Source of the DNA: an uncultured Bacteroidales bacterium
GTDB taxonomy: Bacteria; Bacteroidota; Bacteroidia; Bacteroidales; Paludibacteraceae
Assembly: GCA_900321005.1 (NCBI GenBank)
Contig: ONUF01000001.1
Location: forward strand, 1 to 64,000
Direction of reading: 5' to 3'
Length of the DNA stretch: 64,000 bases
Shown here: piece after piece, positions 15,709 through 47,967 of the stretch
Layout: the number at the start of each line of letters is the position of its first letter
Position numbering within the stretch: the stretch's first letter is position 1
Position numbers and translations under genes: made by a program
Notes under the pieces: model-generated
The model's input: only the letters and a program-made list of their open reading frames with translations
Told to the model about the DNA's origin: nothing
The model's database searches: none

Positions 15709-16146
15709 ATGTATTCTGATCCCCAATCGTGTCTCTATTGTCAGAACAATGAGACACTACATAACCTGATGATCGAGATTGCGCATCTGCGTGTCTCGCG
15801 TGCGTTTTTATTTAAGGAGCAGACCTATCACGGTCGTTGCCTGGTAGCGTATGACAAACATGTGAATGACCTGAATGAGTTGAGCGATGAGCAACGCAAT
15901 CTCTTTATGGCCGATGTGGCGCAAGTGACGCGCGCCATGCAGAAACTCTTCAAGCCGGAGAAGATTAACTACGGCGCCTATTCCGATAAGTTGAGTCACT
16001 TGCATTTCCATTTGGCTCCCAAGTATGTAGACGGGCCCGATTACGGCGGAACATTCCAGATGAATCCGGGAAAAGTCTATCTCTCTGAGGCAGAATATGC
16101 TCAAATGGTTGAGGCGCTGCGCAAAGAACTGAAGGCTGAAAACTGA
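15709..16146 (+). CDS. HIT family nucleotide hydrolase/transferase
   Basis: Histidine-triad protein of 145 residues. The triad HLHFHLAPK (about 97-105) carries the nucleophilic His. An N-terminal CLYCQNNE pair of Cys resembles the zinc site of some HIT proteins. Members hydrolyse nucleoside phosphoramidates or dinucleoside polyphosphates; the precise substrate is unknown. The last codons and the junction to holB lie in a CTGAnnA heptamer repeat (16129-16163). Confidence 0.9.
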   Translation: MYSDPQSCLYCQNNETLHNLMIEIAHLRVSRAFLFKEQTYHGRCLVAYDKHVNDLNELSDEQRNLFMADVAQVTRAMQKLFKPEKINYGAYSDKLSHLHFHLAPKYVDGPDYGGTFQMNPGKVYLSEAEYAQMVEALRKELKAEN

Positions 16147-16163
16147 TTACTGAAAGCTGGATG
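16129..16163. repeat. CTGAnnA heptamer array at the HIT/holB junction
   Basis: Five 7-nt units in register: CTGAAGG, CTGAAAA, CTGATTA, CTGAAAG, CTGGATG. The array supplies the last codons and stop of the HIT gene and runs into the holB start codon. The same unit recurs at 29851 and, inverted, at 44453 and 47285. Confidence 0.75.
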
Positions 16164-17324
16164 CTTTTTAAGGACATTATAGGACAAGAAGCGACGAAAC
16201 AGCAGTTGCGTCAAGCGGTGCGTGAGGGACGAATCCCCCACGCCCAACTCTTCACAGGTATAGCCGGCATAGGTAAGTTGCAGTTAGCCTTGGCCTATGC
16301 CCAGTACCTGAATTGTCCGAATAGAACGGAAGAAGACAGTTGCGGCACATGCCCCACTTGTCTGCAATTCCAACATCTGCAGCATCCGGATCTGCATTTT
16401 GCGTTCCCGATAGTAAAAACCGATGATTATAATCGGTGCGATGACTATGTGGACAGTTGGCGGGAAATCATCCTAAAGAAACATTATTTTGATTTGGATG
16501 ATTGGCACAAAGCCTTGGGCGTGGAGACAAAACAGAGCATGATCTATGAGAAAGAGAGTCAGGAGATCATCCACAAACTGAGCCTCAAACCCTACGGGAA
16601 CGGCTATAAAGTGATGATCATCTGGCAACCGGAGAAAATGAATGCCGATTGTGCCAATAAACTGCTCAAACTGTTGGAAGAGCCACCCGCACAGACGGTT
16701 TTTCTCTTGGTGAGCGAGCATCCCGAACTGTTGCTGACGACCATCCAATCGCGTGTGCAGACGATTCGTGTACCGCGTTTGCCGGATGAGACGATTGCAG
16801 ACGCGTTGGTACAAAAAGGCATCGCTCCGGATCATGCCGCCGATATAGCCCGTATTGCAAATGGCAGTTATCTGGCGGCACAGAAAAAAGCCGATGAATC
16901 CGAGGAAAATCAAGTAGAACTGAACGATTTCATTGCCCTTTTCCGGAATGCGTTTACCGTGGGTGTGCTTCGGGATCCGCAGAAGAAATACGAATCTCTC
17001 AAGGCTCTCCGCAAATGGAGTCTCGACATGGCAGACAGCAAAGTGGGCCGGGAGAAACAGAAGCATTTTCTGCAATATGCCCAGCAACAGGTGCGAGAGA
17101 ACTATATCCGCAACCTGGCGCAACCGGACTTGAATTACCAGTTGGCGGCGGAGCGGGAGTTCTCTGTGAAGTTCGCGCCGTTTATTCATGACGGAAATGT
17201 AGAAGAGATCATGAACCAACTGGAGTTGGCCGAAAGACAGATAGAGCAAAACGGCAATGCAAAAATTATCTTTTTTGACCTTTGCCTGCAAATGATAGTA
17301 TTGATTAAAAAACCGAAGAAATGA
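16161..17324 (+). CDS. holB: DNA polymerase III delta' subunit
   Basis: Clamp-loader subunit of the replicative polymerase. The 387-residue protein has the AAA+ N-terminus LFKDIIGQEATKQQLRQAV, a P-loop-like GIAGIGKLQLAL, four Cys of the zinc module (CPNRTEEDSCGTCPTC), and the LLKLLEEPPAQTVFLLVSE and SRVQTIRVPRL segments typical of delta'. The P-loop lacks the usual Thr/Ser after Lys, as expected for a delta' subunit that does not hydrolyse ATP. It overlaps ricT by 4 bp. Confidence 0.9.
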   Translation: MLFKDIIGQEATKQQLRQAVREGRIPHAQLFTGIAGIGKLQLALAYAQYLNCPNRTEEDSCGTCPTCLQFQHLQHPDLHFAFPIVKTDDYNRCDDYVDSWREIILKKHYFDLDDWHKALGVETKQSMIYEKESQEIIHKLSLKPYGNGYKVMIIWQPEKMNADCANKLLKLLEEPPAQTVFLLVSEHPELLLTTIQSRVQTIRVPRLPDETIADALVQKGIAPDHAADIARIANGSYLAAQKKADESEENQVELNDFIALFRNAFTVGVLRDPQKKYESLKALRKWSLDMADSKVGREKQKHFLQYAQQQVRENYIRNLAQPDLNYQLAAEREFSVKFAPFIHDGNVEEIMNQLELAERQIEQNGNAKIIFFDLCLQMIVLIKKPKK

Positions 17325-18406: not shown

Positions 18407-18864
18407 GAAGAAGTGTTTTTATACTGCTAATAGCCGCTATAGCGAGTCTGCTATCCGCTTGCTCGCATGATATCGTTTATAGTCGATTTATGCCGATTCC
18501 ATCGGATAAATGGGCAGTAGACAGTGTGCTCCGTTTCGACTATGCGATTTCGGATGCGGCAGCCGATTATCGGATGATCGTGTACGTCCGTCATTCGGAG
18601 CGCTATCCGTATCAAAACATGTGGTTGTTTATCGGTGACGGGCAGCGCCAAGACACGATTGAGTTTTATCTGGCGGATGACAGAGGTCAGTGGTTGGGAG
18701 ACCAGAACCACGGATTTATAGAGATGCCGGTTTTGTTGGAGGAGGAAAAGCATTTTCCGGATACGGGTGCATACAGCCTGACGATTCAGCACGGAATGCG
18801 TGACTCGCTCTTGCGCGGCATCACCGATATAGGCGTGGAGATTATACGGAATGGGGAAAAATAA
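18403..18864 (+). CDS. gldH: GldH-type gliding motility lipoprotein
   Basis: Lipoprotein of 153 residues with a lipobox ending at Cys20 (LLSAC). GldH-like features are the early YSRFMPIPSDKWAVDSVLRF, then YVRHSERYPYQNMWLF and a C-terminal QHGMRDSLLRGITDIGVEI. GldH is required for gliding in Flavobacterium and occurs in type IX secretion bacteria, including Bacteroidales. Its 3' end overlaps trmB by 14 bp. Confidence 0.85.
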   Translation: MRRSVFILLIAAIASLLSACSHDIVYSRFMPIPSDKWAVDSVLRFDYAISDAAADYRMIVYVRHSERYPYQNMWLFIGDGQRQDTIEFYLADDRGQWLGDQNHGFIEMPVLLEEEKHFPDTGAYSLTIQHGMRDSLLRGITDIGVEIIRNGEK

Positions 18865-23031: not shown

Positions 23032-23033
23032 AG

Positions 23034-23107
23034 TAGCGGGACCCAGGATTGAACTGGGGACCTCATGATTATGAATCATGCGCTCTAACCAGCTGAGCTA
23101 TCCCGCC
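23034..23107 (-). tRNA. tRNA-Met (anticodon CAT)
   Basis: A 74-nt cloverleaf on the minus strand. Acceptor GGCGGGA pairs with TCCCGCT (first pair G-T). D arm GCTC/GAGC. Anticodon stem CATGA/TCATG with loop TTCATAA, anticodon CAT. T arm CCCAG-TTCAATC-CTGGG, discriminator A. CCA is not encoded. The near-normal first pair argues against initiator tRNA; elongator Met or lysidine-modified Ile remain possible. metG is adjacent. Confidence 0.93.
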
Positions 23108-23112
23108 AATCG

Positions 23113-23174: not shown

Positions 23175-23178
23175 ACGA

Positions 23179-27304: not shown

Positions 27305-27336
27305 CTAGGGGCCTAGGGGACTAGGAACCTAGGAGG
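27305..27336. repeat. CTAGGnnn octamer array at the folP end
   Basis: Four 8-nt units in register: CTAGGGGC, CTAGGGGA, CTAGGAAC, CTAGGAGG. The array encodes the last residues (LLGS) and the stop codon of folP and extends into the spacer before cdaA. The same family occurs at 46383, and with a 9-nt unit at 49704 and 52636. Confidence 0.78.
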
Positions 27337-28244: not shown

Positions 28245-29849
28245 ATGAAAAACGTATTTAAGTATCTCTTGATCGTTTCGGTGGCAATGGCTGCTATTTC
28301 GTGTAACAAGCGTGAGCTGAATACGCGTGTTAGTAACACCACCGGTTGGAATTATTTTGACCGAAAGACTACGAATTTTGAGGCCAATGAAGGTGTGGGT
28401 AACGTAAATCCTGTAGGTATGTTGCCTATTCAGGGTGGTTCGTTCACGGTAGGTGAGAAGGACGAGTTCCTGACCGCTCCGCGTAACAACGAGACCCGTA
28501 CGCTGACCGTTAGTTCGTTCTACATGGACAAGTATGAGATCACGAACCTCAACTGGAATGAGTATCTGCACTGGTTGGATTTCGTCTTTGGCGCAGTAGC
28601 TCCGGAGATTGTTGACAAGGCTCGTCCGGACCATAAGGTATGGCGTGAGGACTTGGCGTACAACGATCCGTATGAGGACAACTATTTTGAGCACCCTGCT
28701 TTCTCGTTCTATCCGGTAGTAGGTGTTACGTGGGAGCAAGCGATGGCTTATGCTCAGTGGCGTACCGACCGTGTGAATGAGATGGCGCTTATCAATGCCG
28801 GTGCCATCACTATTCCGGCGTTTGGCGATTTGCAGCCGACGGATGATGAGGCTTACAAGGATGAGTGGGAGCAGCAGACGGGTTATGAGATGTTCTCTTA
28901 CGAAGAAGTAAGTCCGGAGGATCCGGAGCAGACGGTGACGATGTATCGTCCGAGCTTCGAGTGGATTCGCGATAAGTTTGTCTTCAATACCGAGAAGTAC
29001 CTGATGGATGCTTCGTATATGCCGGAATACGGCCGTCATCCGAAACGCGACAGTTACGGCGCAGACCGTAAGGTCAATATCGCTGACGGTATCTTCGTTA
29101 CCGGTTACCGTCTGCCGACGGAGGCAGAGTGGGAGTTTGCGGCTTACGCACCTGTGGCGGGTGAGGATGGCCTGACGATAGAGGGTAAGGTTTATCCTTG
29201 GTCGGGATACCACCCGCGCGACATGAGTAAGAAGAACCTCGGTCAGCTGCAGGCTAACTTCGTTCGCGGTCGCGGCGATATGATGGGTGTCAGCGGTGCG
29301 CTGAACGATCGTCGTGTGATCACCAACCCGGTTGATGAGTTTGCACCGAACGATTTCGGTCTGTATAACATGGCGGGTAACGTGAACGAGTGGGTACTCG
29401 ATGTATATCGTGAGACGACCTATCAGGAGACGAGCGAGTATAACTCCTTCCGCGGTAATATCTACAGCCGTCCGGTATTGGATGACAACGGTAAGTTTGA
29501 GATGGACTCCACCGGTTGCGTGAAGATCACTTGGGGCCGTGAGGATGATAAGCGTGACGTGCTGGATGGCGATTTCGCCAGTCTGTTCGACACCGACTAT
29601 CCGCTGGATACCGTAGGCATCGAGAACCTCGCAGCTATCAAGACCGACCCGACGGATGTCCTTGCTCCGCGTATCACCAAGAAGAGCCGTGTTTACAAAG
29701 GTGGTTCTTGGGCAGACCGCATCTATTGGCTGAATCCGTCTACACGTCGTTACCTCGACCAAGACAAGAGTTCGTCGAAGATCGGATTCCGCTGCGCGAT
29801 GTCCACGCTGGGTGACCAGATCCCGGGTACGCCGGTTGTTCGCAAATAA
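28245..29849 (+). CDS. gldJ: GldJ-type SUMF-domain lipoprotein of gliding/type IX secretion
   Basis: Lipoprotein of 534 residues (lipobox to Cys20, AAISC) with a formylglycine-generating-enzyme-like (SUMF) fold. It opens with a TTGWNYFDRK segment shared with GldJ, then GMLPIQGGSFTVG, MDKYEITNLNWNEYLHWLDFVFG, HPAFSFYPVVGVTWEQAMAYAQWRTDRVNE, YRLPTEAEWEFAAYA, NMAGNVNEWVLDVYRET and SKIGFRCAMS. GldJ stabilises the type IX apparatus in Flavobacterium; its paralogue GldK/PorK forms the outer-membrane ring. The early YF and EYLHWL blocks fit GldJ better than GldK. gcvH follows behind a heptamer array. Confidence 0.88.
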   Translation: MKNVFKYLLIVSVAMAAISCNKRELNTRVSNTTGWNYFDRKTTNFEANEGVGNVNPVGMLPIQGGSFTVGEKDEFLTAPRNNETRTLTVSSFYMDKYEITNLNWNEYLHWLDFVFGAVAPEIVDKARPDHKVWREDLAYNDPYEDNYFEHPAFSFYPVVGVTWEQAMAYAQWRTDRVNEMALINAGAITIPAFGDLQPTDDEAYKDEWEQQTGYEMFSYEEVSPEDPEQTVTMYRPSFEWIRDKFVFNTEKYLMDASYMPEYGRHPKRDSYGADRKVNIADGIFVTGYRLPTEAEWEFAAYAPVAGEDGLTIEGKVYPWSGYHPRDMSKKNLGQLQANFVRGRGDMMGVSGALNDRRVITNPVDEFAPNDFGLYNMAGNVNEWVLDVYRETTYQETSEYNSFRGNIYSRPVLDDNGKFEMDSTGCVKITWGREDDKRDVLDGDFASLFDTDYPLDTVGIENLAAIKTDPTDVLAPRITKKSRVYKGGSWADRIYWLNPSTRRYLDQDKSSSKIGFRCAMSTLGDQIPGTPVVRK

Positions 29850-29850: not shown

Positions 29851-29880
29851 CTGAAAACTGAAAACTGATTACTGAATACT
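29851..29880. repeat. CTGAnnA heptamer array between gldJ and gcvH
   Basis: Units CTGAAAA, CTGAAAA, CTGATTA, CTGAATA in perfect 7-nt register, filling nearly the whole 34-bp gap between gldJ and gcvH. Confidence 0.78.
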
Positions 29881-29883: not shown

Positions 29884-30258
29884 ATGAATTTCCCTGATAA
29901 TATTCGCTATACGAGCGAGCATGAATGGATTCGCGTTGAGGGTGACGAGGCGTTTGTCGGCATCACGGACTATGCGCAATCGGAGTTAGGAGAGATTGTC
30001 TTCATCGATGTACCGACTGTTGGTGAGACGGTAGGTCAAGGTGAGGTGTTCGGTTCTGTAGAAGCCGTTAAGACGGTGAGTGACCTCAATATGCCTGTAA
30101 CGGGCGAGGTGCTGGAGTTGAACGAAGAGTTGGATGCAGCGCCGGAGTTGGTGAACAACGACCCGTATGGCAAGGGATGGATCATCCGCATTGCCGTGAA
30201 GGATGCTGCAGAGCTTGACAGCCTCATGGATGCGAAAGCGTACGAGGCAAGTCTCTAA
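29884..30258 (+). CDS. gcvH: Glycine cleavage system H protein
   Basis: Lipoyl carrier that shuttles the aminomethyl group in glycine cleavage. At 124 residues it is typical. The lipoylated Lys63 is in [10 protein letters not shown], preceded by [12 protein letters not shown] and followed by NDPYGKGWI. No gcvT or gcvP is nearby. A strong terminator follows. Confidence 0.96.
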
Positions 30259-34500: not shown

Positions 34501-37500
34501 ATAAGCAAAACATTAACGATTACCGACCGCATAGCGGGTACAACCTATTATGCATGGGTGCGCTCGGTTTGCGGTGTAAGCAATAAGAGCGATTGGGTTG
34601 CATTAACGGGAAACACGTTTACTACTTCAACGGTTACAGTGACGCATACATTATCGAACGTTACAAAGACCAGCGGCGCTACTACAGCAGGTGGTAGTGA
34701 TTATACCGCAGTTTATTCTGCAGATACCGATTATTCGATGCCGACACCTTCGGTTACTATCGGCGGCAATTCGGCTACTTCGGGAACGGACTATACATGG
34801 AATGCAGGAACAGGAACGATCACTATTCCGGCAAATAAGATTACCGGCAATATCGTTATTACGTTGAGTTCTGCTGCGGTGGCTCCGACGAACGTAGCGA
34901 TTAGTGGCAACTACCATTACTATCCGGGCGAGACGATTACACTGACGGCTACGGCTACCGGCGGTAACGGCCCGAAGACATATCAATGGTATCACGGCGG
35001 CACGGCAGACGGCAATGCTATATCTGGCGCTACGAGTGCGACTTATACCAAAGCCACTTGTGTGGTCGGAGATGCGGGTAGTTACTACTGCAAAGTAACG
35101 TGCGGTGGATCGGCTTCCCGTTGGAGCGACGGCGCCACCCCACAAACACCGTTCAATGTAAAAATCATGCAGTTTGTGCTGAAAAACGCGAGCGGCGTTA
35201 CTCAGAGCACAACACCACTGACCAAAGTGGATGCCACGCACGCAACAGTAATTCTGCACCTTACTGGCGGAACAACCTATAAGTTCCGTATCACGGATGG
35301 TTGCGGTAACTATTTCGGAAACACCGGCACAATGACCAATGGCAATAGCACGGATTGGTATATGAACGCGGATGCAGATTGCGGAATGACCACTGGTTTG
35401 AAGACATCCAACTATACGTTCAATGTGACGTTGGGCGATTTGGGCAACGGAATGCAAGTAACGGCTATTTATCCGGGCGGAGACCAAGCAGCCGGCAAGA
35501 TTATTTACTGGGATAATAGCGTGTTGAACTGGGCTGATGGTGCTCAATGGTATCGTATCGGAAAGAGCACCCACCACAATAAAATACAAATGACGAAGGT
35601 GTCCGGTACCGCGAACTTGTATAAAGTAACGACTATTGAATACAACGGCTTCGAGTACTGGCACATTGCCAATAATCAAGGTAACGGCGACGGTAACCTA
35701 TTCTGGACCAAGGGAGATGCGGCTAAGGCGATTACTAATGCAATGGAGTTTGAAGGAGCACCTGTAACTCTTGATGCTATCACTGTTACGCCGACTAACA
35801 GCCACGCAACCGGTGAGACTTCGGACAACGATAACTGTCAGTTCTATACCCACACTACAGTTTCCGGCATGAAGACCGATAATGTGGCTATAACGGCTCC
35901 GTCGAATGGAACGATAACGGTGGTTTATGACGATGTTGCTGGTGACGAACAGTCGTTTACAAGCGGCAACCGTGATTTGGCACATACTGTTATTTTGAAA
36001 TCTGTCACGGCTGCACCGGCAACAGGTTATGACTTGAGTTCGCTGACCATCAACGGCAACACTCATACCAGCGGTAACTCATACACATGCTCCGGCGCGA
36101 CGACTATCGCGGCAAGCTTCTCGCTGCATAATTATAATGTGACGTACAGTAACCCTGGTAACGGCAATAATTATACGATAAAGGTGGCAAGTGGTAGCGC
36201 AAGCAGCGAGTCCAAGACAGCCAACATGGATCAGACGATTACTCTTGTGGCAACACCTGCTGCGGGTTATGATTTCACAGGTTGGACGATTAGCAAAGCC
36301 GGTGGCGGCACAGTAGAGCCGGTAAATGCTTCGGCAACCACGACCACCTTCACTATGCCGACAGACAATGTGACTATCACGGCATCCTTCACACTGAGGA
36401 CTTATACGGTTAATTTTGCTGCCTCTCCTGCGGGATATGGTTCGGTAAGCCCGACCAGTATAGCAAGTGTAAATCATGGTTCAACGGTAAGTATTGCATC
36501 AAATGTACTGACCTTGAAAGGAACTAATGTGACAGCTACACCGACAGCAGCGGGAGCAGATTACACCTATGCTTTCAGCGGTTGGAGTGTAAGTAATGGT
36601 GCGGCTATCACGGAGGCACAGACCATTACAGCCAATTTCACACGCACTGCTAATCAATATAGTGTAACACATTCGCTGACGAACATGACTACCGGCAGCG
36701 GTGCAACGGGAGCCAATGCGGCTACTTATGGAACGGACTACACCGCTACTTTGAATGCCAACAGCGGCTATTCCCGTCCGGCATCCATTACGGTGACAGC
36801 GGGTGCGACGGATATCACGGCCAACTGCACATGGAATCAAAGTACAGGTGCCGTTACTATTCCGGGTGCATATATCACGGGAAATATCACCATTACGGCT
36901 GCAGCAGTACTTGTTTACACAGTAACCTTTGATTCGAATGGCGGTAGTGCTGTTTCGCCTATTTCGCAGGCTTCAACCGGAGCGTCTATAACAATGCCTG
37001 CCGCACCGACCTATGCCGACCATACTTTCCAAGGATGGGTAATTGGTGGTACGACTTATGCTGCCGGCGCAAGTTATACTCCGACTGCAAACGTCACCGC
37101 CTATGCAACATGGAAAGCGGATTGCGCCGGAGGAGGAGGAAGTACGACGCTGTTTAATGTTGATTTTACGGACGAAACGACAGAAGAGATTAGCACTGCT
37201 AATAGCGGAGCTACGTTTGTGGCTAAAACATACGATGGTTATAATATGTCGTTTGGTGTTAAGTCCGGCAAGGCGATTGACGTTACTAATGGAACGGGTG
37301 TAAACTTTAAAAGCAATAACTTTGATAGTTATCAATGTCTTGCTATTCCTTTGACCTTAACTAAAGATAACGAAGTAACAGCAGTTGTAACGTTGCATTC
37401 ATCAGGAACTTTGAAATATAAATGGGTCAGCGGAAGTTTACCTGCAACTCCTAGTGTAAGTAGTCCGTCAACATATTCTCCTTCAAGTGCGACGAATACT

Positions 37501-40500
37501 TTGACATATACTCCCTCCTCAGCAGGTAATTATGTTTTATATTTAGGTAGAAGTGGAAGTGGTAATGGCAGTCAGTATATAGAATCTATTGTTATTACAC
37601 AAGAAGGTGGCGGTGGCACGTGTTACTACGTAACGTATGACGGTAATGGGGCAGAGAGCGGAAGTATCAGTGATGCAACGGCATATGCAAGCGGCGCGAA
37701 TGTAACCGTTTTGGGCAACACCGGTGGTAATGCCTTTACAAAAGCAGGTTACGAGTTTACGGGTTGGAACACTTTAGCGAACGGAACAGGCACTCCGTAT
37801 TCCGCAGGTGGAACGATTAGCGGCATTTCCGGTAATGTGACGCTCTTTGCGCAATGGGGCTCGCCTTGTTCTGATCCTGACGACCCGTCAGGTCTGGCCG
37901 TTGGCTCCATCACATCGAGCGGAGCAACATTTACTATTACGGACGATGCAAATACCAACAATTACGAAATTGTTTGCAAGACAACGAGTGGTACTCCGGC
38001 AGCAGATGCAACGCCGACACAAACCGGCACGAGCAAGACGATTGCCGTAACGGGTCTGGATGCTTACACCGATTATTATGCATATGTTCGCTCAGTTTGC
38101 AACGCTTCGCACAAGAGTAGTTGGGTAGCACTGACGGGTGCTCCGTTCAAGACCTTATGCGAGGATCCGACAACGGCATTTGCCAACGGAGACTATACTA
38201 TCGGCGGGTCTGCATTGGATTTGCGTACGCTGATTAGCGGTAACAACAGTAGCGGAGCTATCACTTATTCTGTAACTAATGCCGGCGGAACAGGTGCAAC
38301 CATCGCCGGTGACGGTTATAGCTTCTCGGCTACAATACCAGGTACTGCCTATGTTCGTGCTTCGCAGGCAGCCAACGGCGGACATTGCGCAGCCGTATTG
38401 GATGCTACGGTAACGGTTGCTGCGGCAAATACTTGCGTGACGATAGCTTATTTCGAGGAGACAGCACATAATAATTCCTCCAGTAAACCGGATGGCGCAG
38501 GAAAGTATTTGTATGGTTATGACAACTCTGCTAAAACAGAGGGTTACGCATACACTTTGACGACTTCTACAACCGACAACAAGGGTCAAGGAACAGGCGC
38601 ATCCGATTACCTGCGTATGAATTATGGTACGACGGTTAATGTATATGCCGACAATACCACAACAGGCGGTACTCCGGAAAGTTGGAGCGATGTGACGTCT
38701 GTATCTGTGGACTTCAAGATGAAGAATAGTTCCTACTACACGACATTCGATATTAAGGTAGGTAACACCACTATTGCAGACGATGTCTCCTTGGCTGGCG
38801 ATGCCCAAACAGGATTTACAACCTTTACGTATAATAATCTGGCCAATTTGGATGGAAAGATCAGTATTATCAACAATGGTAGCGGAAGCAGTAACTATCA
38901 CTTCTATGTAGATAATATACGAATCTGTACTTCTGCATTAACCCCTTGTACCACTCCGGTTATTCCGAGTCTGAGTGACCAGACCGTTTGTCCGGGTAGT
39001 GACATTGCTGCTTGGAATGCGACGGTTTCAAACGCAGCGGCTATAAGTGCAGCCGGTGAGAGTGTTGCTTACTCTTGGAAGAAGAAGGGCAGCGATACCG
39101 AATTGGTTAATACGGCTTCGCTCGACCTTGGTTCTTCGGCAACGGAAGGTCAATCAGGTACGTATGTTGTAACTGTGACCGTTTCGGCAGACGGCAAGGC
39201 TTCGGCTTCTGCAAGCAAGGAAGTGACGTTAACAGTTACTCCGGCAACAGAGACTCCGAGTGTGACCGCCAGCAAAGCGAAAGTGTATGCTGGTGACGAA
39301 GTGGTCTTCTCGGCTACTTGCGGTTCGACAGGTGTTACATGGAACTGGTACTTATGCGCTAATTCAGATGGTACGGGCGCAGGTTCAAGTCTGGGCTCAA
39401 GTGCAACCTATACTATCGCGAGCGCGCCCGCTGCGGGTACCTATTATTATAAAGCAGTAGCTACCGGCGACGGAACCCATTCCTGCGGCACAGCAGAGTA
39501 TGTATATACACTGGTAGTCAGCGCTGCCAACTCCTGCGACAAGGAGTTCTGGTTCGCAAAAGAAGGCGATCGTCCGACCGGTGCGGCTTCGGCAACGCAT
39601 ATCACGGGTTGTCCGAGCGGTTCATCCAGCGCAAGTTATACTGCCTCGATTGATGGCACCAACTATACGCTTACCGGAAGTACGGGACAGAAGACGGGAA
39701 ATGTGACGATTGTTGTTCCAGCTGACAATACGGGTACGCTATATGTAGTGGTACAAGGTTCCAGCAGCCGTACAATAACATTGTCGAAGGGCGGTACGCA
39801 GATAGGTCAGGAGACACCGGAAAACAGCACGTGGGGCGTATTCACGTTCGATGATCTTGACGCGGGAACTTATACTTTGGTATCCAGCGGCAATATCAGT
39901 TGGGCGATGATGGCTTTGAAACTCTGTCCGACAGTAGCTTGTACGGATGATACTCCTACGGCTGCGGCAACGAACGCGACAGTCTGCGCCGGTGGTTCGA
40001 TTACCATCACTGCAACGGGTTATGAGGCAGGTGCTACCTTCCAGTGGCAGAAACAAAACGCAAGTACAAGCGTATGGGAGGATATTGACGATGCAACAAG
40101 TGCTACTTATACGGTTGCAACCGCTGCGGCAGAGCATGCCGGGAACTACCACATCGTGGCTACCAAGACTTGTGCCCGTACATCGAACACGGTAACGATA
40201 GCTGTTCCGAGTGCGCCGGTATTCAACAGTTTCACCACTACGCGCAGAATCATGGAAACGCAGGCATTGTCCATCAGCGATGTATCGGCTACAGATGCCG
40301 TAAGTTACACATGGTACAAGAGTACGGATGCTACATGGGATGCCGGAGATACGGAGATTGGTGACTCAAGAAGCCTGCTCAAGCCATATGACGGCGAAAC
40401 AGCGGGCAGCACGTACTACGTCATCTGCCGTGCGGCGAACAGTTGCGGTACAACGACTTCGACCGCAATCACGGTAACGGTACAGACATTAATAGAAGAG

Positions 40501-43500
40501 GATTGTGCGATAGCCGGTAATAGCGGCGAGCACAACACATTCGCCAAGACCGGTAATGTCAGCAGCGGTACATACGGCAGCATCACCGAACTGCATACCA
40601 ACAGCAATAACAAGTATATCTACTATACAGCCGAAAGCGGTTATTACTTCGCTACCGCAACCGTTAATGCTTGCGTAGGTAATGCTTCTGATCTGCCGAC
40701 AGCAGCATACAGTTACTCGACGGACGGCGGTGCCAACTGGACAGATCAGAATCTGACGGGCATGACAACGGCCTATGCAGATCATGTCATCAATCTGCCT
40801 GCTAATGTGAACGCGTTCCGTGTAGGTCGCCGTTTGGGCGATTGCGGAACAAGCAGTAATACGATTTATATACATCAAGTCTGCTTCACCTATAATGAGA
40901 ACTGTACGAAGACGACCGTGGATCCAAGTTCGGCATCTGTAACGCATGAGATAGGTGATTCGTTCACCGAACCGACATTTACTGTCAAGTCCAGCGGCGT
41001 CGCCCTTTCCCCGCAGCCAACCATCACCTACACCTCGTCGGATGAGACGGTTGCTACGGTGGATGACGATGGTTCGGTGAACTTCCAAGACAAAGCGGGT
41101 ACAGTGGTTATCACGGCTGCATATGCCGGAGATGCCACCTACTGCGACAGCGAAGGCAGTTACACAATCACGGTAAGTTGCTCCGACGAGGCACCGAAGA
41201 TAATAGCTGCCGCAGGAACTAATATCGGCGGATGCAACGACGAAATCACCTTGGAGGCGAAGAAGCAAGACGGCACGACTAACTTCTCGGACGGTACGTA
41301 TCAGTGGTATCGTGACGGCGAAGCAATAAGCGGTGCTACAGGCCGCACCTATACAGTTTCGCTGACAGGTGTTTATTCCGTGGAGCGCACAAGCGTAGGC
41401 GGTTGCGTGAGCCCGTCAAGCAACAAAGCGACTGTTACGAGTGAAAGCGCGGAACCGGAAGTAGAGCGTCTGACACCGTTCCAGTACTACCATGTGGATA
41501 AGGTTTATGCTGAGACATCCATCATGCGTTTCCGCCACCTGTTTGCGGTTAAGAACGCCGGAACAACGTTGGAAGGCAAGCACTTCAAGATGGAGTTGTC
41601 CCGTAACGGAGGCGCTGCTACGGATGTAACGAACTCGAATGCGTTTGTAATGAGTGCGGATACCGTATTGCTGGATTTGAACAAAATGGGCGACGGCAAG
41701 TACGAAGAAGACGACGAGTTGGTACTGACCTGTTCTGCGGTGGATTGCGAAGGCAATGTAAGTTCGATTTACAAGAACACGATTACTATCTATGTGATTG
41801 ATGAGACACCGACGTTGGCACTCATCTGTTCCGGTGCAAGCGGCGACGGTACACGTAAGACAAGCAATCTGGTTGTAGGCGGAGACTTCCTTACCGGTTA
41901 CAACAAGGCAGACCTTTGTGTACAGACGGGCAATACGTCGTTTGATAAGACACAGGAATGGGTACTCTATACCCGACTGAAAGAGAACTATATCGTAACG
42001 CCGGTGAACGGTTATGCCGAATATAACAGGTTGAACTATGAGCCGTTCGATATTCTCTTCCTGACCGATTATCCGAAGGCTTCGAAGAGCGATGCGGCAG
42101 CCACGATTCTGGATGACATGGCAGATCTCTGTGACTATCGTCCGTTGTTCACCTTCAAGACGCATATGGTACACAAGAGTCCGTCCAAGTGGGCAGCTAA
42201 GGGCTTTATGGCACAACCGGAAGTTCCGAAGCAGAGCCGTCTGCGTCTGAACATCGTATGTTATGCGCACCCGATGTTTGATGACTTAAAAGAGGTTTCC
42301 GATCATATCCAGAAGGATGCCAGCGACCACAGCCAGATTGTTTATACAATGTTAACCGGTGCAGGTCATGAGGGCGGTAAGGGTATGCAAGGCTTCCCGA
42401 TTGATGCGGCAGAAGGTTTTGTGACGATAGGTCTGGTTCACTATGATGCTACGGCTGCGGACGATACCCCGAGTGATGGCTACGTAACATGGACTTCGGG
42501 AACCGATGATGTGATGTTGGTGGCAGCTGCCGAGCGTCAGGTGAACTTGGAGGCACGTATGATTCTATTCTCTGTCAACTGCGGTGCGCAGAGCATGTTA
42601 ACAGAAACAGGACGACAAGTAGTACTGAAGAGTCTGGAATACCTGCTCTCGGATGCTACAATCACGCCGGTTGCAGACTGCTCGTTCACCTTTACCAACG
42701 GTGCGGGTAATGATTGGACGTATGAGCAGTACAAGGCTAAATGTCCTGCATGTACCGGAACGATTGGTGATGGCAAATGGAGTACGGCAGGTAACTGGGG
42801 ACCGGACTGGATCTTGCAGCCTGGTAAGGATACCGAGGTGAAGATCGCAGCACCGGTAACGGTAGATATGCCGCATGCGAAAGTCCGTACGGTTCGTATT
42901 CTGGAAGGCGGTAGTATTGATATTCCGGCCGGTAGCGGCCTGGAGGTTGGAAGTACTATTCGCCGTCTGGATGGTACAGAACTCAGTCCGACAGAGGTAG
43001 TGGACTTGTCAATCGGTTCTACTTCATCGGGCAACGGTACACTCATCTTCAATAACAATGCCGGCGATACAAAAGCCGGTGTGGCAATGTACAGCAAGGG
43101 CTTTATTGACTACACAGATCCGTCTAAACCGAAGGGCATAAAGAATTACCAGTATATCGGAGTGCCGTTCAAGGCAGTGAATGCGGTGTACAACTACTAC
43201 GGCAGCTGGCTGTACTCATGGAGCGACAAAGGCTCCGGATACGGTTGGCAGAAAGTGCCTAACGGCGGTACTGTAACAGCTTGGACCGGTTATTGTATCA
43301 CACAAGAAACTGCTACTACCCATTGGTCAACCGGTACGCTGGCAGCTACCAATACGGTGGATATCGATGTTCCGGCAGGTGAGAACATGGTAGTTGGTAA
43401 CTCTTGGACCGCACCGATTTACATCAAAGAATTTACGGATGACGACTTTGAGAATCTGCTTGGTAATGTCTATTTCTTCAATACCGGCGTGGACAAAGAT

Positions 43501-44280
43501 TACACATCCGGCCACGAGCAAGATCTTGGCGACCGCTATGCCAGCAGCACCTACGTGACCGTACCGATTCACTCGTCACCTTATACAGGCGACTCGTTGA
43601 TTAGTTCGATGCAAGGCTTCTTCGTGAAGTCAAACGGCTCGGCTGGTGCATTGCACCTCGACTATGATAGACACGTGCGTCCTTCGACCAACCGCAATAT
43701 CTTAAGCGGCGTTATGCACGCACCGAGACGCGCGAATGCACAAAGTGATGAACCGGCGGTACTGAAGATCAAAGTGAGCGGCGAGAACTACGATGACAAG
43801 TTGCTGTTATTAGCGCGCGAAGACTTCTCGATGGGCTTTGATAACGGCTGGGATGGCGACAAGTGGGACGGCAATGAGTCGGCGCTGTATATCTACACCA
43901 AGGATGAAGCAGGAACAGAGAACAGTGTATCGGCTATTCCGGAAATGGAAGGAACAGTCATCGGCTTCCGTGCCGGCGAAGATGACGCATATACGCTGCA
44001 CTTCGAGTACCTGAATAGCGCAGAAGAGTTGTATCTGTTTGATACCGAAACCAACGCCTACACGAAGATCATGACCGGCGCTACCTATCGCTTCTTCACC
44101 GATGACAAGGAGAAGCACGATCGATTTGTCATTACTCGCAAGAGTCCGCAAATAGCGACAGATGTGGATGACGTGGATAGCGGAAAGCGGAGAGATGTGC
44201 GGAAACTGCTTATAGAAGATAAGATGTATATCTTGGTTAACGGAATGTTGTATGACGCAACAGGAAAGGTTGTTAAATAA
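31573..44280 (+). CDS. Giant secreted repeat protein (4235 aa) with InlB B-repeats, Ig/Fn3-like modules and T9SS-like tail
   Basis: Probable surface or secreted adhesin-like protein. The hydrophobic core of the signal peptide is unusually late (residues 65-83), after a charged 60-residue leader. Part of that leader (35-45) is encoded by an 11-nt tandem repeat. Then come two paired modules around residues 236-345 and 415-535, both with WDNxWNQ and ending GSWGTY. InlB-type (Listeria-Bacteroides) repeats with xFTGWNT and ITLYAQW endings lie near 340-410, 530-615, 618-690 and 850-925, and again at 1780-1850 and 2010-2100. Two Fn3-like modules are near 926-1020 and 2099-2196. Ig-like WY and WQ modules follow, with a Big_2-like module near 3110-3200. 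An alpha/beta-looking region spans about 3410-3700. The final block ends RKLLIEDKMYILVNGMLYDATGKVVK-like, resembling a type A T9SS sorting domain. Ligand unknown; many Thr/Ser-rich strands. Confidence 0.85.
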   Translation: MKNNLLNRLSNVVKKGTGLACSWSQVGRMSEGAPDEHPMSIRSASDGERWKPAGEKGSTRVWKHVAMIFAVLVMSIANIGMAWGTSGIITAASTTDLGKGNTPRYVVEQTGVGRLMKNATGSSSWSASDGKLTTGSNKFALQTYNAISSIVITGYGTGSNRTFSSMRVGTTTANYAAAAATGTGTMSSTESSQTITITPSSTIAANSYVEITLSGNIYIYSVELVYAGGASGKNIYLKPNGIWNVDGARFAAYYFKSAGDGNGWVDFSDYNTCTPALKATIPSGYDKVILCRMNGATAVNNWDNRWNQTDNQTVPTGNDTCWTISNIDGSGSWGTYTAPTYTISFNGNGSTSGSTSSHTGIACNGSQTLRANGFSRTGWTFTGWNTSPYGDGTAYAAGATISSITSDITLYAQWEKVMYMKSSMSWWYDASAWFAVWVANADESKQAWVAMTKAENCSDPEVYKATVPGNGYTKVVFVRKNPANMTLATWDNKWNQSSKESMPTSNNQFTITGGSDDNCTGSWGTYSAPTLTISYNNGGGSGSMSSQTSIACGTDKATTANAFTRDGYSFTGWKADVDVKVGGSTKTAGTLLADGVTIQDISSNITLTAQWEEVVTLYTVTYNVNGGGSVTPTSATQASSGASVTLPTPTWSGYTFEGWYNAGTKIGNGGASYTPTADITLYAHWTDNISGKVFSFIDNNYGDKFKAFDLSGWVTANGSNKDKTYTNGTTGVQFVIDDGYWDSKSNAISALAKFKGGTSNMSIVIPTGKIATVKISYNAYGTGNDYRLTINGSAQANPSTKLDDSNTNAEVISNMKEITLNNQTGTLTLGISNTGKNNYIGRVSAVITGYTISYAAGTYGSGSLASGTKTHGSNFTLSSSDGAFTRAGYYYDGWSTNADGSTKDYNLGGTYSTDAAITLYPHWVKLCVAPSLGASDATPTGVTLTVTDADDVNNYDFYVSTSSATPAADAPVTYTSISKTLTITDRIAGTTYYAWVRSVCGVSNKSDWVALTGNTFTTSTVTVTHTLSNVTKTSGATTAGGSDYTAVYSADTDYSMPTPSVTIGGNSATSGTDYTWNAGTGTITIPANKITGNIVITLSSAAVAPTNVAISGNYHYYPGETITLTATATGGNGPKTYQWYHGGTADGNAISGATSATYTKATCVVGDAGSYYCKVTCGGSASRWSDGATPQTPFNVKIMQFVLKNASGVTQSTTPLTKVDATHATVILHLTGGTTYKFRITDGCGNYFGNTGTMTNGNSTDWYMNADADCGMTTGLKTSNYTFNVTLGDLGNGMQVTAIYPGGDQAAGKIIYWDNSVLNWADGAQWYRIGKSTHHNKIQMTKVSGTANLYKVTTIEYNGFEYWHIANNQGNGDGNLFWTKGDAAKAITNAMEFEGAPVTLDAITVTPTNSHATGETSDNDNCQFYTHTTVSGMKTDNVAITAPSNGTITVVYDDVAGDEQSFTSGNRDLAHTVILKSVTAAPATGYDLSSLTINGNTHTSGNSYTCSGATTIAASFSLHNYNVTYSNPGNGNNYTIKVASGSASSESKTANMDQTITLVATPAAGYDFTGWTISKAGGGTVEPVNASATTTTFTMPTDNVTITASFTLRTYTVNFAASPAGYGSVSPTSIASVNHGSTVSIASNVLTLKGTNVTATPTAAGADYTYAFSGWSVSNGAAITEAQTITANFTRTANQYSVTHSLTNMTTGSGATGANAATYGTDYTATLNANSGYSRPASITVTAGATDITANCTWNQSTGAVTIPGAYITGNITITAAAVLVYTVTFDSNGGSAVSPISQASTGASITMPAAPTYADHTFQGWVIGGTTYAAGASYTPTANVTAYATWKADCAGGGGSTTLFNVDFTDETTEEISTANSGATFVAKTYDGYNMSFGVKSGKAIDVTNGTGVNFKSNNFDSYQCLAIPLTLTKDNEVTAVVTLHSSGTLKYKWVSGSLPATPSVSSPSTYSPSSATNTLTYTPSSAGNYVLYLGRSGSGNGSQYIESIVITQEGGGGTCYYVTYDGNGAESGSISDATAYASGANVTVLGNTGGNAFTKAGYEFTGWNTLANGTGTPYSAGGTISGISGNVTLFAQWGSPCSDPDDPSGLAVGSITSSGATFTITDDANTNNYEIVCKTTSGTPAADATPTQTGTSKTIAVTGLDAYTDYYAYVRSVCNASHKSSWVALTGAPFKTLCEDPTTAFANGDYTIGGSALDLRTLISGNNSSGAITYSVTNAGGTGATIAGDGYSFSATIPGTAYVRASQAANGGHCAAVLDATVTVAAANTCVTIAYFEETAHNNSSSKPDGAGKYLYGYDNSAKTEGYAYTLTTSTTDNKGQGTGASDYLRMNYGTTVNVYADNTTTGGTPESWSDVTSVSVDFKMKNSSYYTTFDIKVGNTTIADDVSLAGDAQTGFTTFTYNNLANLDGKISIINNGSGSSNYHFYVDNIRICTSALTPCTTPVIPSLSDQTVCPGSDIAAWNATVSNAAAISAAGESVAYSWKKKGSDTELVNTASLDLGSSATEGQSGTYVVTVTVSADGKASASASKEVTLTVTPATETPSVTASKAKVYAGDEVVFSATCGSTGVTWNWYLCANSDGTGAGSSLGSSATYTIASAPAAGTYYYKAVATGDGTHSCGTAEYVYTLVVSAANSCDKEFWFAKEGDRPTGAASATHITGCPSGSSSASYTASIDGTNYTLTGSTGQKTGNVTIVVPADNTGTLYVVVQGSSSRTITLSKGGTQIGQETPENSTWGVFTFDDLDAGTYTLVSSGNISWAMMALKLCPTVACTDDTPTAAATNATVCAGGSITITATGYEAGATFQWQKQNASTSVWEDIDDATSATYTVATAAAEHAGNYHIVATKTCARTSNTVTIAVPSAPVFNSFTTTRRIMETQALSISDVSATDAVSYTWYKSTDATWDAGDTEIGDSRSLLKPYDGETAGSTYYVICRAANSCGTTTSTAITVTVQTLIEEDCAIAGNSGEHNTFAKTGNVSSGTYGSITELHTNSNNKYIYYTAESGYYFATATVNACVGNASDLPTAAYSYSTDGGANWTDQNLTGMTTAYADHVINLPANVNAFRVGRRLGDCGTSSNTIYIHQVCFTYNENCTKTTVDPSSASVTHEIGDSFTEPTFTVKSSGVALSPQPTITYTSSDETVATVDDDGSVNFQDKAGTVVITAAYAGDATYCDSEGSYTITVSCSDEAPKIIAAAGTNIGGCNDEITLEAKKQDGTTNFSDGTYQWYRDGEAISGATGRTYTVSLTGVYSVERTSVGGCVSPSSNKATVTSESAEPEVERLTPFQYYHVDKVYAETSIMRFRHLFAVKNAGTTLEGKHFKMELSRNGGAATDVTNSNAFVMSADTVLLDLNKMGDGKYEEDDELVLTCSAVDCEGNVSSIYKNTITIYVIDETPTLALICSGASGDGTRKTSNLVVGGDFLTGYNKADLCVQTGNTSFDKTQEWVLYTRLKENYIVTPVNGYAEYNRLNYEPFDILFLTDYPKASKSDAAATILDDMADLCDYRPLFTFKTHMVHKSPSKWAAKGFMAQPEVPKQSRLRLNIVCYAHPMFDDLKEVSDHIQKDASDHSQIVYTMLTGAGHEGGKGMQGFPIDAAEGFVTIGLVHYDATAADDTPSDGYVTWTSGTDDVMLVAAAERQVNLEARMILFSVNCGAQSMLTETGRQVVLKSLEYLLSDATITPVADCSFTFTNGAGNDWTYEQYKAKCPACTGTIGDGKWSTAGNWGPDWILQPGKDTEVKIAAPVTVDMPHAKVRTVRILEGGSIDIPAGSGLEVGSTIRRLDGTELSPTEVVDLSIGSTSSGNGTLIFNNNAGDTKAGVAMYSKGFIDYTDPSKPKGIKNYQYIGVPFKAVNAVYNYYGSWLYSWSDKGSGYGWQKVPNGGTVTAWTGYCITQETATTHWSTGTLAATNTVDIDVPAGENMVVGNSWTAPIYIKEFTDDDFENLLGNVYFFNTGVDKDYTSGHEQDLGDRYASSTYVTVPIHSSPYTGDSLISSMQGFFVKSNGSAGALHLDYDRHVRPSTNRNILSGVMHAPRRANAQSDEPAVLKIKVSGENYDDKLLLLAREDFSMGFDNGWDGDKWDGNESALYIYTKDEAGTENSVSAIPEMEGTVIGFRAGEDDAYTLHFEYLNSAEELYLFDTETNAYTKIMTGATYRFFTDDKEKHDRFVITRKSPQIATDVDDVDSGKRRDVRKLLIEDKMYILVNGMLYDATGKVVK
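31675..31707. repeat. 11-nt tandem repeat in the giant gene's leader
   Basis: Three 11-nt units: GATGAGCATCC twice, then GATCAGCATCC. The total of 33 nt preserves the frame and encodes residues 35-45, ahead of the hydrophobic core. Confidence 0.75.
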
Positions 44281-44301
44281 TGTTGAATGTTGAATGTGTA
44301 A
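44281..44301. repeat. TGTTGAA heptamer array
   Basis: TGTTGAA, TGTTGAA, TGTGTAA in register, directly behind the giant gene's stop. Confidence 0.6.
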
Positions 44302-44317
44302 GGAAAGGAGAAACATT

Positions 44318-44773
44318 ATGAAAACGAAAATGTTGCGAAATATGATGATAGTTGTTCTGCTGGCGCTCGTGAGCGCCATGCAGGCAACGGCCGTGAACTA
44401 TAAGAATACGTACAATGGAGTACGGAATACAGAGTACAGAGTACAGACGGTTAGTAATCAGTTTTCAGCGGTCAGTATTCAGACTTCTACGCAGAACGCA
44501 GGCTTCCAGTCAACGAGTGCATATTCCGGCCAGTGGAATCAAGATGCCCAGCAGTCCACGCTCAATGCAGATGGAACGGTGAATGCGGATGCGTATGGTG
44601 TCGGGCGCTCGTATGTAGGTCCCAGACGGTCTGGAACTAACCCGGGAACACCGGATGACGAAGAAGAGGAAGAAGGCGAACAGCAGCCGATAGGCGATGG
44701 ACTTTTGGCGCTGATGCTTTGCGCATGCGCGTACCTTATTGTACGCGCTACGCGTAAAGAAGAAATAGGATAA
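44318..44773 (+). CDS. Small exported protein with C-terminal anchor-like tail
   Basis: About 151 residues from ATG 44318, with AAGGAAAGGAG upstream as an unusually good ribosome binding site for this genome. A signal peptide (MIVVLLALVSAMQATA) is followed by a Gln/Ser/Thr/Asn-rich low-complexity body, an acidic run (DDEEEEEGE), then QQPIGDGLLALMLCACAYLIVRATRKE: a PxGDG box, one hydrophobic helix and basic residues. This layout recalls C-terminal protein-sorting tails such as the Bacteroidota PID-CTERM type. No family is recognised for the body. Residues about 35-57 are encoded by ten consecutive heptamer repeats. It lies between the giant protein and GH105 genes on the same strand, so it may be co-expressed. 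Confidence 0.7.
   Translation: MKTKMLRNMMIVVLLALVSAMQATAVNYKNTYNGVRNTEYRVQTVSNQFSAVSIQTSTQNAGFQSTSAYSGQWNQDAQQSTLNADGTVNADAYGVGRSYVGPRRSGTNPGTPDDEEEEEGEQQPIGDGLLALMLCACAYLIVRATRKEEIG
44418..44487. repeat. Compound array of ten heptamers inside a gene
   Basis: Five units of GAGTACA type (44418-44452: GAGTACG, GAATACA, GAGTACA, GAGTACA, GACGGTT) are followed without loss of phase by five of AGTnnTC type (44453-44487: AGTAATC, AGTTTTC, AGCGGTC, AGTATTC, AGACTTC). The second half is the reverse complement of the CTGAnnA family. Confidence 0.75.
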
Positions 44774-44789
44774 CACACAAAAATCAATA

Positions 44790-46346: not shown

Positions 46347-46382
46347 AGTCTGTTTGCGCACGCGGAAAGAGGGGAAAGAATC

Positions 46383-46430
46383 ATAGGGTTTTAGGGGACT
46401 AGGGTCCTAGTATACTAGTATCCTAGAAAA
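46383..46430. repeat. CTAGnnnn octamer array between the GH105 genes
   Basis: Six 8-nt units: ATAGGGTT, TTAGGGGA, CTAGGGTC, CTAGTATA, CTAGTATC, CTAGAAAA, ending 10 bp before the next start codon. Confidence 0.75.
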
Positions 46431-46440
46431 CAAACTTACA

Positions 46441-47967
46441 ATGAAGAAATTGTATATCATATTTATAGCGGCGGCGGGGCTATGCCTTGCCGCTTGCGGA
46501 AAGTTCGGAAGGACGGGCCAAAAACCGGACAGTGATGTCCGTAATGATCGCGAAATGGTCGCGGGATACTCAGCAAAGATGATCAATGCGCGCATGACGG
46601 CATGGCATAACAAAGACGCCGAGGTCGGTTTTCCGAACGCCAACAGTACCAACGGCGTCACCAATCCGGCGATACCTGCGTCGTGGGACTATGTACCGGG
46701 CGTGGTAGCAAAAGGAATCCTCGATGTATGGGAATACTACCAGGACTCCGCCTGGGCGGATGCCTGGTACAAAGGCCTATGCGCGTGGGGACTGACGAAG
46801 ACCGCGACCGATAAAGGCGGCATCCTCGACGACCTCAACTGCACGAAGGTATTCCTCGTATTGTACGAAGGCGCGAAGCCCGGTGGGCGATTTGAGAACG
46901 CCGACAATGCTGCGTATTTCATGGAGCAGTTGCGTCGCGGTGCGCGCGGATTGGAGGATCATAAGAACCGCTACACCATCACTTCCGGTGGCGCAGAAGG
47001 CGGATGGATGCACAAGGCAACGGACGACCCGAGCACGAGTTATTACGGCCAGATGTGGTGCGACGGTGCGTACATGGGCCCGGCACTATTGGCACAACTC
47101 TTGGTTTGCGGTGCGACCGAAGGCCTGAACCTCGGTTGGAACGACGTATATGACCAGTTCGAGGTGTCATGGCCGTACCTGTGGGACGAAGAGAACCGCT
47201 TGCCGTACCACGTGCTATTCACGGACATAGTCCTTAATAATAACGCGCGCGCAATTGCCGAAAGCGGGCACGCGTTTCCTTGTAAGTATTCAGTAATCAG
47301 TGATCAGGAATCAGACACCATATGGCACTCGGAGGAATACTGGGGACGTGCGGCGGGATGGTATATGCTGGCGTTGGTCGATGTGCTCGAAGCATACCTT
47401 AAAGGGTTAGAGGTTAGTGGTGAGTGGTTAGAGGGGGAACCCCTGCCTTCAGCGCAGCATTTCGATGAGTTGCGGGATATGTTGTCGCAATTAGCGGACG
47501 GACTGGTAGCGCGGCAGGATAAAGAGACGGGCTGTTGGTATCAGTTGCTCGCCTATGGTCCGGAGAAAAGCGCCACGCAAGGCATCGACGATACGGGTTC
47601 GGACAAATATACGAACGTAGAAGCCGGCGGTACGCAATGTAATTATTTAGAGTCTTCCGCGAGTTGCCTCATTACGGCGGCATTGCTGAAGGGTTCACGC
47701 TTGGGATTGATCGACCATATGGATGCCGGTAAACGCGGATACGAAGGAATAGTCAAGCAATTCGTTCGCGAGGAAAAGGGCGAGCTTCAACTAATCGGCA
47801 GTTGCCAATCGGCGGGCTTGAGTAAAGACCGCAACGGTTCGGCTGCCTATTACCTGATTGGCAAGGATGTTCCCATACAAAATAACACCGAGGGAAAAGT
47901 CCTCGGTGCATTTCTGATGGCTGCCGTAGAATATGAACGCTTAGAAGCGGAAGGTAGCTCCCACTAA
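46441..47967 (+). CDS. GH105 unsaturated rhamnogalacturonyl hydrolase, lipoprotein
   Basis: Paralogue of the preceding enzyme, 508 residues, exported as a lipoprotein (lipobox to Cys19, LAAC). GH105 blocks: ILDDLNCTKVFLVLYEG, GGWMHKATDD, GQMWCDGAYMGPALLAQLL (probable catalytic Asp about 207), EYWGRAAGWYMLALVDVLEAY, TGCWYQLLAYG and NYLESSASCLITAALLKGSRLG. Two heptamer arrays lie inside the coding region: 47285-47312 (KYSVISDQES) and 47406-47433 (LEVSGEWLEG), both at places where the paralogue differs. The last 27 bp overlap the convergent barrel gene. Confidence 0.85.
   Translation: MKKLYIIFIAAAGLCLAACGKFGRTGQKPDSDVRNDREMVAGYSAKMINARMTAWHNKDAEVGFPNANSTNGVTNPAIPASWDYVPGVVAKGILDVWEYYQDSAWADAWYKGLCAWGLTKTATDKGGILDDLNCTKVFLVLYEGAKPGGRFENADNAAYFMEQLRRGARGLEDHKNRYTITSGGAEGGWMHKATDDPSTSYYGQMWCDGAYMGPALLAQLLVCGATEGLNLGWNDVYDQFEVSWPYLWDEENRLPYHVLFTDIVLNNNARAIAESGHAFPCKYSVISDQESDTIWHSEEYWGRAAGWYMLALVDVLEAYLKGLEVSGEWLEGEPLPSAQHFDELRDMLSQLADGLVARQDKETGCWYQLLAYGPEKSATQGIDDTGSDKYTNVEAGGTQCNYLESSASCLITAALLKGSRLGLIDHMDAGKRGYEGIVKQFVREEKGELQLIGSCQSAGLSKDRNGSAAYYLIGKDVPIQNNTEGKVLGAFLMAAVEYERLEAEGSSH
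47285..47312. repeat. AGTnnTC heptamer array inside GH105
   Basis: AGTATTC, AGTAATC, AGTGATC, AGGAATC; the reverse complement of the CTGAnnA family seen at 29851. Confidence 0.72.
47406..47433. repeat. GTTAGAG heptamer array inside GH105
   Basis: GTTAGAG, GTTAGTG, GTGAGTG, GTTAGAG in 7-nt register. Confidence 0.7.

Follow-up and report, generated by a model that had tools for sequence, protein, structure and literature searches.

The stretch of DNA analysed here, the first 64,000 nucleotides (nt) of contig ONUF01000001.1 from an uncultured Bacteroidales bacterium of the Paludibacteraceae (hereafter the window), carries four short arrays of a heptamer built on CTGA, two of them at gene junctions and two, in reverse complement, inside coding regions (Table 1). 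An earlier note, made from the sequence alone, had described these sites as copies of a degenerate unit CTGAnnA in strict 7-nt register; on direct inspection of the letters all four read as described, and each spans exactly 30 nt. The register holds, but the array is better written as CTGAHNR four times followed by CT, and the extent given in the note, exact for the array upstream of gcvH, was a few bases off at the ends of the other three. The gcvH array, preceded by 1 nt and followed by 3 nt, makes up the entire 34-nt spacer in which it lies, and its stretch CTGATTA-CTGAATA-CT at 29865-29880 does occur again, inverted, at 47285. No Pfam match was found for the open reading frame (ORF) of 159 residues that hosts the third array. 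Gene calls were taken from a simple caller, with approximate start positions. When the window was shuffled 100 times with an order-2 Markov model, runs of two CTGA..A units occurred with a mean of 0.07 and runs of three units with a mean of 0.

The family is spread genome-wide, with one unit at unlinked loci and in both orientations, as the note had proposed. The genome of this organism (2.12 Mb, 78% complete) contains 131 matches to (CTGA-HNR)x4 + CT, overlapping ones counted, against 0 for the reversed pattern, and 103 matches to the short pattern CTGANNACTGANNACTGA, against 2 for the reversed one; it holds roughly a hundred copies of the 30-base element, and elsewhere in the genome the unit is far commoner than expected by chance. 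Run-length and mismatch counts were made in a 464-kb sample only, consisting of the window, where the finding arose, and 20 stretches of 20 kb sampled irrespective of arrays. Regions repeating at lag 7 (at least 18 of 21 matches) number 53 in this sample, against 8 at lag 8, 10 at lag 9 and 8 at lag 11; the multiples of 7, lags 14 and 21, give 25 and 10 regions, and one order-3 shuffle of the sampled DNA gave zero regions at lags 4-24. With a looser cut-off 73 lag-7 arrays are obtained, their units mostly A-rich. CTGA is the most frequent core among the lag-7 arrays and has the most variable unit remainder.

In an alignment of 43 arrays with exactly four CTGA cores, a partial fifth core, CT at positions 28-29, is present in 43/43, positions before or after the 30 nt hold at most about 0.4 bit each, and no shared sequence was found beyond these limits. 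Because CT closes every aligned array and little information lies outside, we define the element as CTGA-HNR x4 + CT, 30 nt in length. Filler position 1 is rarely G, and filler position 3 is mainly A or G. In chains of at least four cores, with spacings of 5-12 nt allowed, the spacing was 7 nt in 125 of 127 cases. Copy number peaks at four: the period-7 CTGA runs of the 464-kb sample comprise two with three copies, 23 with four, six with five, three with eight and one with ten, and two-copy runs number 11, against 6, 9, 15 and 19 at control periods. The 18 core letters are nearly all-or-none while the fillers vary. Over these fixed letters 34 placements are perfect, two have one mismatch, one has two and four have three (38, 2, 2 and 3 for 0-3 mismatches with looser merging of placements), compared with 0.45, 0.77, 1.36 and 2.09 for permuted-core controls. 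Fillers are widely varied with no single unit dominating (CTGATAA 17/322, CTGATTA 70/322), and adjacent fillers show 0.40 identity vs 0.41 between arrays when arrays with at least three identical units in a row are excluded; homogeneous runs, e.g. CTGATTA x7, also occur.

Table 1. Positions and settings of heptamer arrays in the window.
Array	Positions	Strand	Setting
30-nt CTGA element	16129..16158	+	Covers last codons and stop of HIT-domain gene (15709-16146); stops 2 nt ahead of start of DNA polymerase III delta'-type gene (16161-17324)
30-nt CTGA element	29851..29880	+	Within 34-nt spacer between FGE-sulfatase-domain gene (28245-29849) and gcvH (29884-30258)
30-nt CTGA element	44453..44482	-	Within 159-residue ORF (44294-44773), antisense to ORF
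30-nt CTGA element	47285..47314	-	Inside glycosyl hydrolase 88 gene (46441-47967), antisense, in frame
Four GARTACR units + GA, 30 nt	44418..44447	+	Same ORF 44294-44773, 5 nt from CTGA element
Four AATYNTC heptamers	2775..2802	+	At overlap or junction of two genes
GGTTAGA-type heptamer array	47404..47434	+	Same glycosyl hydrolase 88 gene as CTGA element 47285..47314
ATTTGTC-type heptamer array	55250..55284	-	Likely signal-peptide part of gene ending at 53928

Placement was followed in 71 arrays, of which those in loci L441-L460, L005, L021 and L022 had been selected for matching CTGANNACTGANNACTGA. Gene-internal copies make up 34 of these and are antisense to the host gene in 34/34, because the sense strand would place TGA in all frames; three further arrays, the first array of the window included, overlap a gene 3' end in sense. 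Between co-directional genes 24/27 arrays are sense, most of them adjoining or including a stop codon. Of the 33 perfect elements in an unbiased set, 18 lie within genes; as 85.5% of the DNA is coding, the elements are enriched in the rest. Lag-7 arrays of any unit are held by 28 of 139 co-directional spacers of 10-150 nt and by 14 of 28 spacers of 30-50 nt. The peptides from gene-internal copies, e.g. SAISNQQSAIS, are encoded across all three frames, and in-frame copies sit within housekeeping genes, e.g. CoaBC, MurG and YggS. Ten host proteins were scanned, with matches above the curated cut-off for CoaBC, MurG, YggS, PepT, YicC, RimO, QueA and Obg, and below it for RsmD and a MurC/Mpl-like ligase. 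At L361:14006-15355 (contig C26 of the same genome) YggS is fused to an inorganic diphosphatase-like HAD domain; in several congeners the YggS and inorganic diphosphatase-like parts are separate matches.

Copying or mobility of whole arrays, which the note had suggested, finds no support in the fillers. Among 61 perfect elements from the 71 arrays, four are fully homogeneous; the other 57 yield two pairs that share at least three of four fillers in place, vs 2.9 expected, and their flanks are unshared. With all 61 elements nine such pairs are found vs 3.3 expected (2/500 shuffles reach nine), because several loci carry CTGATTG x4 or runs of CTGATTA, a recurrence that could also arise by local repetition. 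When runs were collapsed in the 71 arrays, 95 two-unit words were shared vs 65.6 expected (10/1000 shuffles reach it) and four three-unit words vs 1.6 expected (100/1000); the differing filler make-up of coding and spacer arrays may be the cause. Copy-and-paste of intact arrays was rejected, since fillers are mostly independent and there is no common flank; elements of the miniature inverted-repeat transposable or Rickettsia palindromic type share sequence across the element or its flanks, whereas CTGA elements do not. Array units are, on the other hand, more alike within than between species, a value reached by 0/2000 label shuffles for 114 arrays and by 1/2000 for the 69 arrays outside the genome of the window, so that some factor acts genome-wide. 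Pairs with identical consensus units amount to 1.2% vs 0.06% for flanking 7-mers; the profile similarity of units is 0.51 vs 0.55 for flanks, i.e. lower, because degenerate units blur this softer measure.

Individual sites come and go from one species to another. Neither of the outcomes that the note had named as refuting was seen: the unit exceeds chance by far, and orthologous junctions are not ordinary conserved DNA of one sequence. In congeners the sites are empty or often hold other units, the names of which were read by eye from the sequence. The spacer upstream of gcvH holds other heptamers in several congeners, e.g. ATCACAA, TAGTAAA, AGTTTAA, ATTTGAn and ATCATAA, and its best lag-7 matches of 21 are 16, 20, 19, 12, 17 and 9 in six syntenic congeners and 18 in the species of the window. 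At the delta' junction CTGAnnn, AATTAAR or GTTTAAG arrays are found across species, matching local codons (CTGAAR, TTAAAA or TTGAAA seeds). The array in the glycosyl hydrolase 88 (GH88) gene corresponds to a net gain of seven residues vs five orthologs and of eight vs a sixth, and in the congener G018 an AATTCTC-type array lies in the same loop. In YggS, the stretch that holds CTGA units in this species holds ATTTCAC, AATGTCC, CTTTCAA, AAATTTC, AAATCAT or GAAGATT units in 6/17 congeners; G061 retains a decayed CTGA array with 16 nt in common with the element by descent. In CoaBC a colinear array is common to this species, G006, G003 and G032, with one core changed in G032. Varied fillers as proof of one-step birth are weakened as an argument, since the CoaBC and YggS arrays are shared by descent.

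Beyond this genome, 36 congeners have 0-39 matches to CTGANNACTGANNACTGA each, 11 of them none, and lag-7 arrays of any unit are found in 21 of 23 sampled genomes of the genus. In the DNA sampled from G009, G027 and G033, arrays of 11-nt period are more numerous than those of 7 nt, and lag 11 is the top lag. CTGA runs in 1.56 Mb from 22 congeners comprise four with three copies, nine with four, two with five and one with eight. A larger tandem array, each unit of which contains a CTGA four-core element, lies at about 16967-17290 of L428 (G026:C7). Across the phylum the 30-nt pattern is present in 127/395 genomes, with a maximum of 564 matches in one. The reversed control (AGTC, period 7) is itself abundant in G305 (241 control vs 196 pattern matches), G222, G120, G163 and G414, and other cores therefore expand there. 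Among the matches listed, CTGA arrays occur in cyanobacteria, Parabeggiatoa, Planctomycetota, Acidobacteriota, Chloroflexota and others, and the mixed-filler four-copy form with CT was seen in L251, L265, L266 and L275. In contigs of a viral collection, chosen for such runs, 91 of 134 runs of at least four copies have exactly four, followed by CT in 62 of the 91; the collection scans select for four or five cores and are therefore uninformative on three-copy arrays. Opposed CTGA array pairs lie in spacers between co-directional genes in L097, L104, L065, L081, L296 and L300 of the viral collection, and L104 has two opposed pairs laid out as 30 nt - 7 nt - 30 nt.

We tentatively read the arrays as a dispersed 30-bp recognition site for a putative heptad-binding protein, kept by selection on the core, and regard this as possible with somewhat less than even confidence. 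The putative sequence-specific nucleic-acid-binding protein would need about four contiguous heptads, and selection would hold the core and let filler bases drift; it would work much as the ParB (omega) protein of pSM19035 does on its 7-bp heptads. Cores that stay fixed, fillers that vary and a preference for four units are the features expected of a site bound by several subunits. In favour of this reading are the exact ends, the peak at four copies, the nearly all-or-none core, the unlikeness of adjacent fillers, the 16 nt shared by descent in YggS and the four-heptad threshold of pSM19035. CoaBC adds to these: at identical residues of the colinear array, core third bases agree in 8/8 cases and filler third bases in 1/10, with 0.52-0.58 in the rest of the gene. 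Sites would probably be gained via local heptamer amplification from a core-like seed in tolerant DNA, namely short spacers or the coding DNA for signal peptides, loops and surface helices, and would probably be lost again later, giving the turnover of single sites between species.

A number of observations speak against such a recognition site. The Omega_Repress profile matched in 0/41 genomes, with search controls equally silent, and no reader protein is in hand, and the information content of the site is far above the need of a binding site in a 2-Mb genome. Elements are rarely retained at orthologous positions; the GH88 element is present in one species only (1/12 loci), as is the perfect MurG element (1/30 loci). 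The third-base counts from CoaBC are few and not independent, and the CoaBC array of the window's species is homogeneous. The peak at four is thin in the congeners, where a single locus, L428, contributes 4/9 four-copy runs as near-identical copies; with L428 left out, the runs are two with three copies, four with four and one with five. In bacteria at large many of the CTGA arrays are long, homogeneous runs, and other cores are less sharply four-fold, AATnnnC x4 + AAT having 17 perfect and nine one-mismatch placements.

Simple slippage and intact copy-and-paste both fit badly, but slippage enters a further explanation that we consider somewhat unlikely, namely that the arrays are heptanucleotide microsatellites, created or rewritten by 7-nt replication slippage wherever DNA is tolerant, with shared units due to local seeds and polymerase preference and the remainder shaped by selection on reading frame and spacer length. 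The dominance of lag 7 in the genome of the window, the tracking of local codons by the delta'-junction units, homogeneous runs such as CTGATTA x7 and the report that in most genomes no long simple repeat is as common as the heptamer (Mrazek 2007, via PMC4679880) all fit with it, but arrays of three copies are outnumbered by those of four, the cores stay intact where fillers vary, and single 7-nt steps in essential genes would be expected to shift the frame. Slippage surely contributes, in homogeneous runs and local seeding; as the whole story, plain slippage was rejected for its poor fit to the copy-number peak and the core/filler contrast. These two features, with exact ends and few intermediates, would also follow if an enzyme or nucleoprotein inserted or overwrote about 30 nt in one step, writing a degenerate micro-element with fixed core and loosely specified fillers, and the different four-fold units in the same loops and spacers across species agree with this; we nonetheless hold it decidedly unlikely, as the descent of the CoaBC and YggS arrays implies that not every array is newly written, and no candidate enzyme is known. 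Reverse transcriptases (PF00078) were found in 11/41 congeners, the genome of the window included, whereas G007, G017 and G035, 95-98% complete and with 22-25 CTGANNACTGANNACTGA matches, gave none; with no match in several nearly complete array-bearing congeners, a reverse transcriptase was rejected as maker.

An element acting in mRNA, either as a source of UGA in all frames from a stop to the start that follows it or as a translation leader site, appears very improbable. The sense bias of the co-directional spacer arrays, most of which adjoin or contain a stop, would suit it, and in BOGUAY 132/170 TAACTGA sets are directed at start codons that lack a ribosome-binding site (PMC4679880 Table 1). 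However, roughly half of the elements, the 18/33 of the unbiased set, are gene-internal and antisense, where no such role is possible, and the sense bias may stem from keeping, or seeding on, a TGA stop; a pure mRNA role was rejected for its failure to explain the antisense copies within genes.

Short repeats in frame inside protein-coding genes are known from the Rickettsia palindromic elements, which are longer, palindromic and copied; the CTGA elements share the in-frame position, but are 30-nt direct repeats with little sign of copying. The short tandemly repeated repetitive sequences of cyanobacteria form dispersed intergenic heptamer arrays, and resemble the CTGA elements by description. 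The note knew of no description in Bacteroidota and was wrong in this: TAACTGA, which is CTGATAA rotated, forms direct repeats in Beggiatoaceae, cyanobacteria and five Bacteroidetes, and a leader role at the level of translation was proposed for it (MacGregor 2015, PMC4679880). Both systems are tandem at an exact 7-nt period with CTGA, their spacer copies are sense toward the start codon and their ORF copies reverse, both are patchy among relatives, and mixed heptamers occur in some Bacteroidetes (PMC4679880). TAACTGA sets mostly have 2-4 exact copies (five in three sets, six in one) of one fixed unit with related heptamers rare, whereas the fillers of CTGA elements vary widely; the fixed 30-nt length, closing CT, free fillers and in-frame turnover in housekeeping genes are particular to the CTGA element and do not figure in the portions of that account drawn on here (PMC4679880).

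The GGGAATC and GGGGA(C/T)T heptamer repeats of Xanthomonas and Nostoc are also dispersed and heterogeneous, (GGGANTN)n, with four units in most motifs and opposite-orientation pairs; their four units are explained by G-tract quadruplexes, whereas the CTGA core has a single G and no G-tract, and about 90% of them are intergenic, unlike the CTGA elements (PMC4692102). In plasmid pSM19035, parS heptads are read by the ribbon-helix-helix protein ParB/omega, at least four contiguous heptads being the threshold for full activity, and like the CTGA element parS consists of unspaced 7-bp repeats, four contiguous; its unit is WATCACW, in six plasmid sites of 7-10 heptads, vs CTGAHNR here (PMC9499535). 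AATCACA units are present in some congeners, e.g. G003. We would take the pSM19035 parallel as a likeness of working, not kinship. Literature searches on heptanucleotide and heptameric repeats, which were limited and covered few subscription papers, found no 30-nt free-filler element and no in-frame heptamers in housekeeping genes. The sharp architecture, the free fillers, the in-frame copies and the unit turnover did not turn up in the literature covered, while heptamer repeats themselves are known.

Heptamer repeats are on record from several phyla, with neither their function nor their origin settled, and the exact ends, preferred copy number, near all-or-none core and free fillers of the CTGA element make it a directly testable bait for a binding protein. 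Elements of this kind, acting at the level of DNA, can overwrite loops of conserved proteins such as MurG, CoaBC and YggS, with units that differ between species. We think it unlikely, but worth stating, that bacteria have a general 'tetra-heptad' class of sites, arrays of four units and about 30 bp in which the core is fixed and the fillers are free, with many cores, each with its own reader or writer; candidate cores would be CTGA, AATnnnC, TAAAC and GARTAC, and CTAG at 8 nt. If so, the same spacers and protein loops would, in this genus, repeatedly gain, lose and regain tetra-heptad sites by writing and erasure, a DNA-level system would shape surface loops of housekeeping proteins, and TAACTGA, GGGAATC and the cyanobacterial heptamers would be members of one class.

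Arrays with other cores and periods accompany the CTGA elements, among them those in the lower part of Table 1. GAnTACn x4 + GA has six perfect and one one-mismatch placements, and at the place orthologous to 55250..55284 the congener G035 has an ATTGGTC array. The pattern CTAG-N4 x4 gave eight matches, every site counted on both strands, and none with 1-3 mismatches. CTAG recurs at least four times at 8-, 9-, 10- or 11-nt spacing with varied fillers at 27305-27332, 46399-46426 and 52636-52675 of the window, as well as in L374 (G018) and L428 (G026); these arrays are located in spacers and likely signal-peptide coding DNA. At 31667-31711 of the window, near the start of an ORF of 4235 residues (31573-44280), the 11-nt unit GAGCATCCGAT is repeated 4.1 times.

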